A stretch of DNA of 64,000 nt, from positions 1 through 64,000 of the forward strand of contig RQOG01000046.1 in assembly GCA_003854985.1 (NCBI GenBank), read 5' to 3'. Below, one piece after another: positions 111 through 30,480 of the stretch (positions are counted from its first letter, which is position 1; each line of letters opens with the position of its first letter). The notes under the pieces are model-generated. The model saw only the letters and a program-made list of their open reading frames with translations, searched no databases and had not been told where the DNA came from. Source of the DNA: Calditrichota bacterium. GTDB taxonomy: Bacteria > Calditrichota > Calditrichia > Calditrichales > Calditrichaceae. The position numbers and the translations under genes are program-made.

Positions 111-150
111 CCCGATCACGATCACGACAACGATCAACGTCTAACGATTA
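111..150 (+). repeat. Half copy of the R1 palindromic repeat
   Basis: This 40-base segment matches, in reverse complement, the first half of the two longer R1 repeats at 28018-28119 and 28575-28675. They share blocks such as CGACAACGATCAACGT and AACGATTA. It ends two bases before the start codon at 153. Relative to the downstream gene it has the same orientation as the other two copies. Confidence 0.7.
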
Positions 151-1439: not shown

Positions 1440-1612
1440 TTTTTCATGTAAGGCTTTTTTAAATTAACCACTGAGTTCACTGAGTGTCTCTGAGTTTAGA
1501 ATGAAAATTATTTTTTTACAATTTTTTTTTAGTGATGTTCGGTGGATTCGGTGGTAATTTATAGATGAAAACTTAATTTTCAGACACAAGGATTCAGGAG
1601 GAAAAAAAATAA
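1440..1612. repeat. Intergenic stretch with degenerate CACTGAG/CGGTGG repeats
   Basis: No gene is seen here. Bases 1468-1485 read as a near reverse complement of the end of R2 (16 of 18 positions), giving tandem CACTGAG units through 1499. Bases near 1532-1557 carry a second degenerate pair, TTCGGTGG and ATTCGGTGG. Together with R2 at 1613-1694 these form inverted, decayed copies of one short-repeat family around a T-rich spacer. Confidence 0.5.
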
Positions 1613-1694
1613 GAGGCAATAGTCAAAAGGCATAAGTACTCAGGCGCTCAAGGTCTTTGTAACTTAACTGTGTGTAATCAGTGAAATCAGTGGA
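1613..1694 (+). repeat. R2 dispersed repeat, copy 1
   Basis: The core at 1628-1694 (67 bases) is identical to 2639-2705 except for one base. The similarity extends about 15 bases further upstream with several mismatches. The end contains two tandem AATCAGTG units. The copy stops 11 bases before the start codon at 1706. Confidence 0.85.
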
Positions 1695-1705
1695 CAAGTA
1701 ATAAA

Positions 1706-2568: not shown

Positions 2569-2623
2569 TTCTTATAGAAAATGGAAATCAGTAATCTGAA
2601 GGTGACAGGCGCAAAATACCAAG

Positions 2624-2705
2624 AAGGCGATAGGCAAGAGGCATAAGTACTCAGGCGATCAAGGTCTTTGTAACTTAACTGTGTGTAATCAGTGAAATCA
2701 GTGGA
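2624..2705 (+). repeat. R2 dispersed repeat, copy 2
   Basis: Bases 2639-2705 match 1628-1694 at 66 of 67 positions (C/A difference in the GCGCTCAAGG/GCGATCAAGG block), with weaker similarity back to about 2624. The repeat ends 9 bases before the start codon at 2715, mirroring the position of copy 1. Confidence 0.85.
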
Positions 2706-2714
2706 TAAATTTAT

Positions 2715-26381: not shown

Positions 26382-27998
26382 TCAATCCAGCCTTAACATT
26401 TCTTTCCACTCCAGCCATAGCTCCGCTCTGGCCGTCCATTCACTGTGGTTTTTCCCCTTAATATTCAAATAATTACCAAAATCATTATAAGCCGCTTCCA
26501 ACTGAATATTACCATATTTGAGCGGCCTGTAAAAAAAGGAAATTCCCGCCTGCAGATGTTTCTCCACAATACCAAAAGGAAAAGGCTCGGAATAGTCTTC
26601 GCCTGGCTCGCGCTCTAAAAAATCTTTATTGTAGGCTCCGGCCGTGTTTCCCTCTCCCTTGCGTAAGTAGCTTAAAAATACCCCTGATTTTAAATTACCC
26701 GCCCACCATTTATCTATCTTAACATAGTAGCGTTCCAGGTTGCTTTCCAGCGCATAACCTATAACCTTATTCCGGTGCAGATATTTTTCCCAGTCATAAT
26801 TCGGCGAATTATATGCGCGGTGCCGGAGATGAATGTATTCCGTATTAAAAAGACTTCCATTCCACTTAAAAAGATTACTCCATTTGACTCCCGCAATCAA
26901 ACCCCATTGATCCGGTTCAAGATCCAGCGCCGTTTTTTCCTCGATTTGAATATCGTCTACTAAAAACTCTCCGTATACTTCAACATTTTTAAAATACAAA
27001 TCCCATTCCGCGCTGTAAAAAACATTTCCATCGCGGTAATTTCGGTTTAACATATAAGCGTGATAAGATGTTAAAGGATTCATATAGGGCAGTTCCCACT
27101 GCACATCCGGGCCGCCGTATAAAACGATTTCATTCAAAGCAAAACGGTAGCGGTTTTTGTAATTATAGGATAAACGATGTCCATTAATAAAACGGTTGGA
27201 GAAATCATTCTTTTCTCTCAAAGCCGGTTCGGGATTCCGCCGCCGGTCAAGCATAATTCCCCAAAAATGCAATTGCAATGAGGATTTTCCGATCTGAAAG
27301 TAATACTGGTCAAAGGTGCGGCTGTTATCGGAAAATAAAAGCTGCCCTGTGCTGCCCGGCCCCAATTGCAGCCAGTCCCGGCCGAATTTTACTTTCAGCC
27401 AGTCATTATTGTATTCAAGATAAGCCTGTTCATTGTAAGCATATAATCCCGAGAATTTCTTTCCGATATAATCTTTATCGGCCTTATTAAAAACCACAAA
27501 ATTCCAGCAGGCAATTAAATCCGGGGTGAAATAAAAGACAACCAACGGATTCATTTTAAAATATCCGTCATTTGATTCATTTAAGCGCACTGCTCCGCCT
27601 CGAAGATAGCCGCCTGCTTTTAGCGTCATTTTACTTTCCGTTTTGCCTTCCGTTTCTTCTAAAAAGTTTTTGACCTTTTCAATTAAAACCTGCCATTTTT
27701 CACCTTCCTGTCTGGCAAGAAGATCAAATTCAGCGGAAAATTCTGCGAACATTTCTTTTAAAATTTTACGATCATTGGCGGTAGACTGGTCAATATTTTC
27801 TATTTGCAGCAGCGCTCTGGCAATTTCGCCCCGGTTAAACGGGCGCTGATTTCTGTTAAGCTGTGACAGACTGCCGTTCACAATCAGGTAATCAAGATAT
27901 GTATTGGCCCAGTGATAGGGCGGGAGTGTTTCCTGGGATAAAACCGTCACCGGCAGAATAAGAAGTAATGATAGCGTGTATAAATACTTTTTTATCAT
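26382..27998 (-). CDS. Wzi-like capsule-assembly outer-membrane protein
   Basis: The 538-residue protein has a signal peptide ending near A/S-Q22. It then shows Y-H-W-A-N-T-Y-L-D-Y-L and R-P-F-N-R-G-E-I-A in an N-terminal helical segment, followed by a long run of alternating aromatic strands (W-L-K-V-K-F-G-R-D-W-L, Q-L-H-F-W-G) of an outer-membrane beta-barrel. This fits the Caps_assemb_Wzi family, whose E. coli member binds capsule at the cell surface. It converges with the polysaccharide locus, which supports a role in displaying that polymer. A GGAAAGGG ribosome-site-like sequence lies upstream on the minus strand, between the start and repeat R1A. No terminator is evident between it and gmhB. 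Confidence 0.72.
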   Translation of the reverse strand: MIKKYLYTLSLLLILPVTVLSQETLPPYHWANTYLDYLIVNGSLSQLNRNQRPFNRGEIARALLQIENIDQSTANDRKILKEMFAEFSAEFDLLARQEGEKWQVLIEKVKNFLEETEGKTESKMTLKAGGYLRGGAVRLNESNDGYFKMNPLVVFYFTPDLIACWNFVVFNKADKDYIGKKFSGLYAYNEQAYLEYNNDWLKVKFGRDWLQLGPGSTGQLLFSDNSRTFDQYYFQIGKSSLQLHFWGIMLDRRRNPEPALREKNDFSNRFINGHRLSYNYKNRYRFALNEIVLYGGPDVQWELPYMNPLTSYHAYMLNRNYRDGNVFYSAEWDLYFKNVEVYGEFLVDDIQIEEKTALDLEPDQWGLIAGVKWSNLFKWNGSLFNTEYIHLRHRAYNSPNYDWEKYLHRNKVIGYALESNLERYYVKIDKWWAGNLKSGVFLSYLRKGEGNTAGAYNKDFLEREPGEDYSEPFPFGIVEKHLQAGISFFYRPLKYGNIQLEAAYNDFGNYLNIKGKNHSEWTARAELWLEWKEMLRLD

Positions 27999-28017
27999 AA
28001 AACATCAATCCCTTTCC

Positions 28018-28119
28018 AATTAATCGTTGAACGTTGATCGTTATCGTTGTCGTAATCGGGGAAGAATAATCGATCACGATAACGATCACAGCTTTTCGCT
28101 GATCAACGTCTCACCGATG
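28018..28119 (-). repeat. R1 palindromic repeat, copy A
   Basis: This 102-base element matches copy B (28575-28675) with three substitutions and a one-base indel. Its ends are inverted versions of one another (AATCGTTGAACGTTGATCG against GATCAACGTCTCACCGATG), so a long imperfect hairpin can form. It sits 20 bases upstream of the Wzi-like start on the minus strand. Together with copy B it brackets the four-helix-bundle gene as a direct repeat. Confidence 0.88.
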
Positions 28120-28140
28120 CATAATTTTAACAGTAACCAT

Positions 28141-28563
28141 CTATTGTATTTTATTTTCATCGCTGTCTGTTTCATCGACGTAACCACAATACTCAATAGA
28201 ATTTTCTTTTACTTCCCATGATTTTCTTGTCATTTTAGTAAGCATTGATACAATCCTGATTAATAATTTTTCTCCAAAATCATAATCAGTTTTATTGATT
28301 GCATTTCCTATAAGTAATACATCCTGAACAGCGGAACATTCTAAAGCAGATCCCCTGGCTATTGCAAAATAACGGTTTCGGTCATTTTCTTTGAATTTTC
28401 CATTTCCTTCTGCAATGTTTAATGGGATAGACTGTGATGCTCTTAGTATTTGATCTTTTGCGTAACGATGTTTACTACTAATTCCATTTACTAAACTATA
28501 CACAAATTTAACATATTCTAAAGATACAATATAAACATCTAATTTTTTATGTGAAAATTCCAT
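28141..28563 (-). CDS. Four-helix-bundle protein (S23 / 23S rRNA intervening-sequence type)
   Basis: The 140-residue protein begins K-K-L-D-V-Y-I-V-S-L-E-Y-V-K and has the family core R-A-S-Q-S-I-P-L-N-I-A-E-G-N-G followed by Y-F-A-I-A-R-G-S-A-L-E-C, the S23/IVP four-helix bundle related to the Avd proteins of diversity-generating retroelements. The function of stand-alone members is unknown; a pentameric bundle with a positive surface that may bind nucleic acid is the family view. No reverse transcriptase or template/variable repeats are near. The last 20 residues are acidic. It is flanked on both sides by near-identical R1 repeats, making a repeat-gene-repeat unit of about 660 bases. Confidence 0.85.
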   Translation of the reverse strand: MEFSHKKLDVYIVSLEYVKFVYSLVNGISSKHRYAKDQILRASQSIPLNIAEGNGKFKENDRNRYFAIARGSALECSAVQDVLLIGNAINKTDYDFGEKLLIRIVSMLTKMTRKSWEVKENSIEYCGYVDETDSDENKIQ

Positions 28564-28574
28564 TTTTTTCTTTC

Positions 28575-28675
28575 AATTAATCGTTGAACGTTGATCGTTG
28601 TCGTTGTCGTAATCGGGGAAAAATAATCGATCACGATAACGATCACCGCTTTTCGCTGATCAACGTCTCACGATG
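28575..28675 (-). repeat. R1 palindromic repeat, copy B
   Basis: This 101-base near copy of 28018-28119 is in the same orientation and lies 12 bases upstream of the four-helix-bundle start on the minus strand. It has the same internal sub-repeats (GTTGTCGTTGTCG, ATCACGATAACGATCACC). Its far end abuts the 3' end of the 5'-nucleotidase gene. Confidence 0.88.
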
Positions 28676-28690
28676 GCCAAGTGAGTATAA

Positions 28691-30358
28691 TCAGTCTTCT
28701 ATTTCAACCTTCCAGTTGTCGTCAACTTCCTGCAGGATAACGCCTTCTTTTTGGAAGTAATCAATTAGAATTGTTCTGATTTCCCGATTTGATTTCCAGA
28801 TGATTTCAGGGTCTTTAATTCCGGCTGCATTCATAAATCCCCCTCCGCCTGATGCCCGGTAACTGTTAACGGCAACCCGGTAATATTTTTCTTTTTCCAG
28901 TTGACTCCCATCGGAAAGCGTTAAATTAACGATTTTATTTCTGACCGATTTATCCTGTCTGCTTTCCATTGTCCTGTTTACCCGAATAGTATAATTAATT
29001 CCTTCGGCCATATCGTAATTATAACCGGCAATGTCCGGATCGTGGCCGGCAATGTATTCTGATTCTCCGGAATGATTATAATTTTTTAAATAGTATTGCG
29101 TCGAGTATTCAATATATTTTCTTATTTGTTCTCCGGTCATATTAATAACATATAGATAATTCTCGTAAGGATAAAGGCTGTAAATATCCTTCACTTTAAG
29201 TACGCTGTCTTCGATAATCAGCTTGTTGTTAAAAGAGCTGGCGAATGATATCTGCGCATCGGATGCCGCCATTTGCGCCTTGTTAATCTGTTCAATAGCC
29301 GGGGTGTCTTCAACGCGCGACCAGCGGGTATCCAGGACGCCGTTAATTTCCGCGATTTCCCGGCGGGTATATTCTAAGGTCTGCTGATGAAAAAAATCAG
29401 TAAGTTGAATAATGGATTCTGCAGCCTGCGCGTTATAGGCCGGTTCCAGCCAGCCGCGTTTGTTAATAATTTTATATTGTTGGTTAACCTTCCTCAGAAC
29501 AATTTGAGCTATGGCGATATGTTTTGCCCGGTGACCGGCGTTCAGCTTTAAGGGCAGATTAAGATTATTGGCTTTATCATATTCATCCGGGTATACTTCT
29601 TTATGGGAATGACCGGCGAATATTACATCAAAGCCGGGAACCTTGGCGGCAACCAGTCCGGAGGCATTTTCATTGGGAATATTCAACGCTTTTGTTTTTT
29701 CCGCGCTGTAGCCCGAGTCGAAGCCGGCATGGAAAAGTCCTATCAAAATATCCACTTCCGGCTTTAAGATATCGCAATATTTTTTTGCCGTGGAAACCAT
29801 ATCTGTCCATGTAATTCCCGGATAAAGCGATTCATCCAGCCACATGGGAATACCGGGCGTGGTTAATCCGATAACGCCAATCCGGATGTCATTCCTTTCC
29901 AGAATGGTATAAGGCTCGAAATAAGTTCTTCCGTCCTCCAGCAGGCTGTTAGCCGAAAGCCAGGAGAACCGCGATTCGGCTCGGGCTTTTTCATAAACAA
30001 ACACACCCTGCTCGATATCATGATTCCCGACGGCGAATGCATCGTATCCCATATAATTTAAAGTTAGAATCATGGGATTTAAGTAGGTGTTTTTCTCATG
30101 ATTGAAAAGATAGGTTAAAGGCGTTCCCTGTAGCAGGTCTCCTGCGTCCAGTAGAATAATATTTTTATGCCGGCGCCTGAAATCTGCAATTTTTGTATAA
30201 GCCTTTGCCAGCCCCAGGTCTGCCGGCTGATCTTTAAAATAATCGTAAGGCTGGATACAGCCGTGAACATCGGTGGTCGCCAATATAAAAACGGTATCCG
30301 TTTGCTGAGCCAGCAGTCCGGACGATAAAAAAACCAATAAATAAATTAATTGCTTCAT
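28691..30358 (-). CDS. Secreted 5'-nucleotidase / cyclic phosphodiesterase (UshA/CpdB-like)
   Basis: The frame extends to 30409, but the ATG at 30358 gives a proper signal peptide (M-K-Q-L-I-Y-L-L...L-A-Q) and has AGGAA upstream; the protein is then 555 residues. The metallophosphatase domain has T-T-D-V-H-G, D-A-G-D, G-N-H-D and A-G-H-S-H-K metal-binding motifs. The C-terminal 5'-nucleotidase domain has S-F-N-N-K and Y-P-Y-E-N-Y, ending in a G-G-G-F block. Such enzymes remove phosphate from nucleotides, cyclic nucleotides or UDP-sugars in the periplasm for salvage. The gene stands alone, divergent from yraN. Confidence 0.85.
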   Translation of the reverse strand: MKQLIYLLVFLSSGLLAQQTDTVFILATTDVHGCIQPYDYFKDQPADLGLAKAYTKIADFRRRHKNIILLDAGDLLQGTPLTYLFNHEKNTYLNPMILTLNYMGYDAFAVGNHDIEQGVFVYEKARAESRFSWLSANSLLEDGRTYFEPYTILERNDIRIGVIGLTTPGIPMWLDESLYPGITWTDMVSTAKKYCDILKPEVDILIGLFHAGFDSGYSAEKTKALNIPNENASGLVAAKVPGFDVIFAGHSHKEVYPDEYDKANNLNLPLKLNAGHRAKHIAIAQIVLRKVNQQYKIINKRGWLEPAYNAQAAESIIQLTDFFHQQTLEYTRREIAEINGVLDTRWSRVEDTPAIEQINKAQMAASDAQISFASSFNNKLIIEDSVLKVKDIYSLYPYENYLYVINMTGEQIRKYIEYSTQYYLKNYNHSGESEYIAGHDPDIAGYNYDMAEGINYTIRVNRTMESRQDKSVRNKIVNLTLSDGSQLEKEKYYRVAVNSYRASGGGGFMNAAGIKDPEIIWKSNREIRTILIDYFQKEGVILQEVDDNWKVEIED

Positions 30359-30480
30359 AAGTTTCCTAATATGCTTAATTATGCTTAAATTTAACCGGAC
30401 GGCAGGCAACTTCCAAACCGAATTGATTTTATTGTATTCGGAATATGGCTGAAATTAGTTTTAAAGAGAATAAGGGGGAA

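Follow-up and report, generated by a model that had tools for sequence, protein, structure and literature searches.

The gap between two co-directional genes of a Calditrichota bacterium holds a small four-helix-bundle gene bracketed by two palindromic repeats (R1), and this unit is one member of a bacteria-wide family of tiny, apparently mobile cassettes in which such a gene sits between self-pairing short-repeat arrays that differ from copy to copy. The length of the repeat follows the family tree of the protein, suggesting that the protein reads the repeats. The unit was found in the window, i.e. the whole stretch of 64,000 nucleotides analysed here (contig RQOG01000046.1, positions 1 to 64,000), where a sequence-only reading had described two nearly identical, directly oriented repeats around an S23-type gene. 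This observation proved correct. The two R1 copies are 101 nt long, 96% identical, direct and spaced by 557 nt, and each one folds into a long hairpin (DNA MFE of -23.3 and -20.8 kcal/mol, z of -4.2 and -3.0, with 0 and 1 of 200 shuffles as good). The intact ORF between them codes for a protein of 140 aa that matches Pfam PF05635, the 23S rRNA-intervening sequence protein (72.9 bits, cut-off 33.8), and TIGR02436, "four helix bundle protein" (the S23/IVP family). No Rfam family matched. Both neighbouring genes are on the same strand and the unit fills the gap between them (Table 1).

Table 1 Coordinates in the window of the repeat-gene-repeat unit, its neighbours and other repeats
Position	Strand	Feature	Remarks
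28141-28563	-	S23/IVP four-helix-bundle gene	140 aa, PF05635/TIGR02436, window-type (period-6) clade
28571-28671	.	R1 palindrome upstream of the gene	degenerate hexamer arms
28014-28114	.	R1 palindrome downstream of the gene	direct copy, 96% identical
28023-28058	+	5' arm of downstream R1, ATCGTTGAACGTTGATCGTTATCGTTGTCGTAATCG	hexamer-periodic array, best lag 6
28071-28118	+	3' arm of downstream R1	complementary to the 5' arm, with a small side hairpin (AGCTTTTCGCT)
28691-30409	-	upstream host gene, metallophosphatase/5'-nucleotidase-like	the unit starts about 20 nt after its stop
26382-27998	-	downstream host gene, Wzi/capsule-assembly-like (not searched)	orthologue directly adjacent in G016 without the unit
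111-150	-	gene-less R1-like arm elsewhere in the window	
1588-1697 and 2599-2708		another direct repeat pair	110 nt, 85% identical, 1011 nt apart; not examined

The sequence-only reading had proposed that repeat plus gene could be a small non-autonomous mobile cassette in which the protein helps the repeat move, or a selfish module whose protein binds the palindrome, and had made this depend on R1 copies elsewhere being linked to such genes and on orthologous loci showing presence and absence of the unit. The link to R1 did not hold. In this genome (4.06 Mb in 180 contigs) a whole-genome search with R1 found two full copies, both at this place, and about two dozen R1-like arms elsewhere (E <= 1e-3), none of them next to an S23 gene, so that only 1 of about two dozen R1-like places has one. 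We rejected the idea of R1 as a family with its own transposed copies, since the others are partial arms mixed with other intergenic palindromes. The intergenic regions of this genome (loci L003-L029) are mosaics of several palindromic modules besides R1: AACCCATGATTTTAATCATGGG, AAATCGTTAAAACGATT, CCCTACCCCTTAATCCCCTTCCCTAA, CAATGCCGAACGCCGATTGGCGAAG and ATTACGAATTACGAATT. The genome has four PF05635 genes, and reading the flanks of the other three showed that each has its own, quite different short-period repeats, GGAATGCGGAATGAGG around locus L033, CAAATTTCAAATAACAAAC and its inverse around L034 and TTGCCTATCGCC-type around L031, so the link is not to R1 but to an architecture. The other condition was fulfilled: at the window's own site, genome G016 (same order) has the two orthologous neighbouring genes adjacent with a gap of about 115 nt, without S23 gene and without R1. 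This gap (L038), after the 5'-nucleotidase gene, holds another hairpin-like repeat, TGTCATTCCGAGCG...CATGACA. Overall, the proposed interpretation is supported in part, and for reasons beyond R1: the unit belongs to a family whose members appear and disappear at orthologous sites, have gene-less derivatives and have a repeat period that follows the protein tree, while that the protein binds or moves the repeat is inferred and not shown.

In order to describe the architecture we compared 250 nt upstream with 300 nt downstream of 95 S23 genes from about 45 genomes of several phyla by local alignment. Inverted matches scored >=30 in 74% of them, against 1.9% of 421 other genes in the same loci (p=4e-40). 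An independent set of 80 loci (76 named genome records of GTDB species and 4 cyanobacterial plasmids) gave 70% against 4.8% (p=3e-27). Across 173 S23 genes from many phyla, the upstream and downstream flanks form an inverted pair of degenerate short-period arrays in 72%, against about 2-5% of control genes, although about a quarter of S23 genes show no clear array pair. Size-matched control genes gave 2.1%. The match is within the element, as arms taken from different elements of the same genome reached 30 in only 2.0%. Typical arms are GGTAAAGGGTAAAAGGTAAAAGG and its complement, AGTAGGCAGTAGGC and GAGTTATTAAGTTATTG. The upstream arm has more G than C in 112 of 117 untied cases (112:5) and its period is almost always 7 (64) or 8 (28) nt. 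Among 129 S23 genes with co-directional neighbours 124 lie in the same direction and 5 in the opposite one; ordinary genes in the same loci give 299:34, so selection for co-direction is part of this and the bias can come from selection rather than from the mechanism. The direct orientation of the window repeats is exceptional in a family where the inverted pair is the rule; the window shows it in another form, with a palindrome on each side, shared with its nearest relative in G016.

A profile search of genome contigs with a narrow alignment returned loci that include several Flavobacteriaceae operons where S23 occupies different gaps in different species. We therefore read one gap, between the 3-hydroxyacyl-CoA dehydrogenase and thiolase genes (identified by reading), in the genus Flavobacterium and a few relatives. 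Of 115 parsed genomes, 25 have no element (gaps of 6-36 nt, 18 of them 6-9 nt), 52 score as a gene-less hairpin, 17 carry an S23 element and 21 are mixed, including about a dozen weaker short-period hairpins. Of the 52, one (L287) is a run of N, five are a different GCCCCCTAACCCCC inverted repeat and one (L350) is not periodic. REP-RAYT elements (Y1_Tnp ORF with TAGCTCCGTAGGAGC repeats) and a REP-only array occupy the same gap (L291, L303, L332); two of the mixed rows, L291 and L303, are REP-RAYT elements, and the L291 ORF is PF01797. By reading, S23 genes of one lineage always carry GTATTAAG arrays (12/12) and those of the other TGTATAATGTA arrays (5/5), at the same site. In ten genomes with a gene-less hairpin here and an S23 element in the next gap, the array type agrees in nine, also by reading. 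The rows of this site are related by descent, so that the counts are not independent events. In locus L250 a gene-less hairpin is tandemly duplicated together with the start of the downstream gene (ATGAAAACAGCCTAT). No target-site duplication was defined, since the empty sites are too short and the arrays too periodic, and this criterion of a MITE or DNA transposon speaks neither way. Covariation by RNAalifold on one family of gene-less hairpins gave no clear answer because the arrays slip in the alignment. All 17 S23 elements fold as RNA with the terminal arms paired (18-59 pairs) and 51 gene-less hairpins have a median z of -3.9.

The nearest relative found of the window protein (in G016, 37% identity) also has a hairpin-gene-hairpin build in direct orientation, with a different sequence. 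More distant relatives in other phyla carry CGATAGCGATAGCGAT, CGAGCACGAGCACG and CGGGCTCGGACTCGG arrays. On a tree of proteins less than 70% identical these nine form one side of a branch (SH-aLRT 92) and all nine have a best period of 6, a period found in only 1 of 165 other S23s, whose periods are otherwise 7-8. For the window and its G016 relative the period call is weak on its own (best lag 6, identities 0.63-0.71). Period 6 against the rest needs 2 changes on the tree, against a shuffled mean of 9.8 (minimum 8 of 300), and periods 7 and 8 are also clustered (23 changes against 31.9, minimum 27).

The same build was found in the classical 23S rRNA intervening sequence (IVS) of a same-family relative, G005, where an S23 gene lies in 23S rRNA bounded by heptamer arms, TTCAAGGAGCAAGGTTCAAGGTACAAGGAG and CCTTGCGCCTTGATCCTTGTTCCTTGA. 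In Coxiella, tandem heptamers GACAGAT next to the S23p ORF vary in number between strains (PMC4990558), and the IVS is regarded there as a selfish element. The rRNA IVS, found in Leptospira and Coxiella, thus looks like the same kind of cassette in another location. The window unit shares with it the protein family but lies between two protein-coding genes instead of inside 23S rRNA, and has direct palindromes and hexamer arrays. As for the complementary ends that loop out the ORF in the IVS, each R1 is self-complementary but the inverted match between the flanks of the window gene scores only 27, a value that leaves the presence of such a stem here undecided, although the stem is typical for the family. 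Excision by RNase III was not measured. The gene-less copies of the family, the tie between array period and protein clade and the arrays flanking free-standing S23 genes were not found reported in the literature searched, which covered few subscription papers.

REP-RAYT elements (BIME/REPIN) also have a small gene between palindromic repeats, gene-less copies in intergenic gaps and repeats that co-vary with the protein (PMC2817692). The window genome likewise has about two dozen R1-like arms with one place bearing a gene. However, the window protein, matched only by PF05635, is a four-helix bundle without known enzymatic motif and not an HUH Y1 transposase, the window copies are direct instead of inverted (though each is palindromic), and the arms in the family are long degenerate periodic arrays that differ for every element. 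The accessory protein Avd of DGRs has a homologous four-helix fold (PMC10053308), and the PF05635 relatives 2gsc and 2rld deposit five chains each. No reverse transcriptase (PF00078) was found in this genome, which is about 95% complete; a template/variable repeat was not looked for. MITEs are also short gene-less inverted-repeat elements resembling the ends of gene-bearing ones, but here the terminal sequences are not conserved between copies.

We consider it likely that the unit is a free-standing relative of the 23S rRNA IVS, a small selfish cassette riding in operon gaps, with gene-less derivatives, that is analogous to REP-RAYT without being one. What the data show is that an S23 gene sits between self-complementary short-period arrays, in the sense strand between the stop codon of one gene and the start of the next, that the arrays are particular to each element with matching arms and a period that follows protein phylogeny, and that gene-less hairpins and completely empty sites exist at orthologous positions. 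The rest we infer: the cassette would be transcribed from the host operon, the arms would pair and loop out the gene (tolerated as the IVS is in rRNA), and the pentameric S23 protein (pentamer stated in PMC4990558) would recognise its own array class in trans, letting gene-bearing and gene-less hairpins spread or be copied within the genome. No transposition was observed, the protein has no known catalytic motif, and for Coxiella it has been argued that S23 is not expressed in vivo (PMC4990558). The mobility enzyme and the biochemistry are unknown; the nuclease or replicative step is likewise unknown and is probably supplied by the host or by a transposase. In the window, the arms being full palindromes on both sides gives the direct R1-gene-R1 look.

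Among other explanations, the hairpins might be mobilised by an unrelated enzyme such as a Y1/REP-type transposase, the S23 gene being a passenger or an RNA-binding chaperone that merely helps hosts tolerate the insertion. We regard this as doubtful but possible. The lack of a catalytic motif and the REP-RAYT elements in the same Flavobacterium gap are in its favour, and Y1_Tnp is clearly commoner in S23-bearing genomes (64/75 vs 33/71, p=7e-7), an association confounded by mobile-element load and relatedness. However, eleven S23-bearing genomes have no Y1_Tnp hit, among them G101 and G133, each a single contig, and a passenger would not predict that array period follows S23 phylogeny. It is unlikely that the excised hairpin RNA is reverse-transcribed and re-inserted, as in a retro-element. 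The sense-strand bias, the RNA hairpins enclosing the ORF, the location inside rRNA and the Avd-PF05635 relationship could be read in this way, but PF00078 is not associated with S23 (25/75 S23-bearing vs 20/71 S23-free genomes, p=0.59) and is absent, besides this genome, from the single-contig G005 with 9 S23 genes and from G006 with 12.

Equally unlikely is that the S23 genes are ordinary host genes and the arrays mRNA-stabilising or processing hairpins selected in operons, presence and absence reflecting only loss and drift. The location is operonic and sense, hairpins between cistrons are common and several sites are conserved across genera. But arrays are element-specific within one genome, two S23 lineages occupy the same gap with different arrays, empty sites of 6-9 nt exist, copy number ranges from 0 to 19 among genomes, and elements occur in rRNA and in plasmids, one of them typed as conjugative. 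S23 cassettes were found in Nostocales plasmids (L234-L237), one inside a ribonucleotide reductase gene pair, with heptamer-like arrays that recall cyanobacterial STRR repeats. A chance arrangement, in which two copies of an abundant genomic palindrome happen to flank a small gene, is very improbable: R1-like arms are numerous in this genome, but the only two full-length copies both flank the S23 gene, the nearest S23 relative has the same build with a different sequence and the clade shares period-6 arrays.

A more far-reaching reading is possible, although we hold it only tentatively. There might be a widespread class of bacterial selfish elements recognised through repeat period and polarity rather than through a fixed terminal sequence, in which a pentameric four-helix protein reads 6-, 7- or 8-nt periodic hairpin arms, keeps the two arms of each element matched and mobilises gene-less hairpins. 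This would explain both rRNA intervening sequences and many intergenic low-complexity palindromes of bacteria. PF05635/TIGR02436 proteins are common, often multi-copy and without a known function, and their rRNA-borne relatives have been called selfish elements for decades without a mechanism. The link between protein clade and repeat period gives a concrete, testable recognition hypothesis, unites rRNA intervening sequences with free-standing copies in operons, and offers an origin for many unexplained low-complexity palindromes between bacterial genes.
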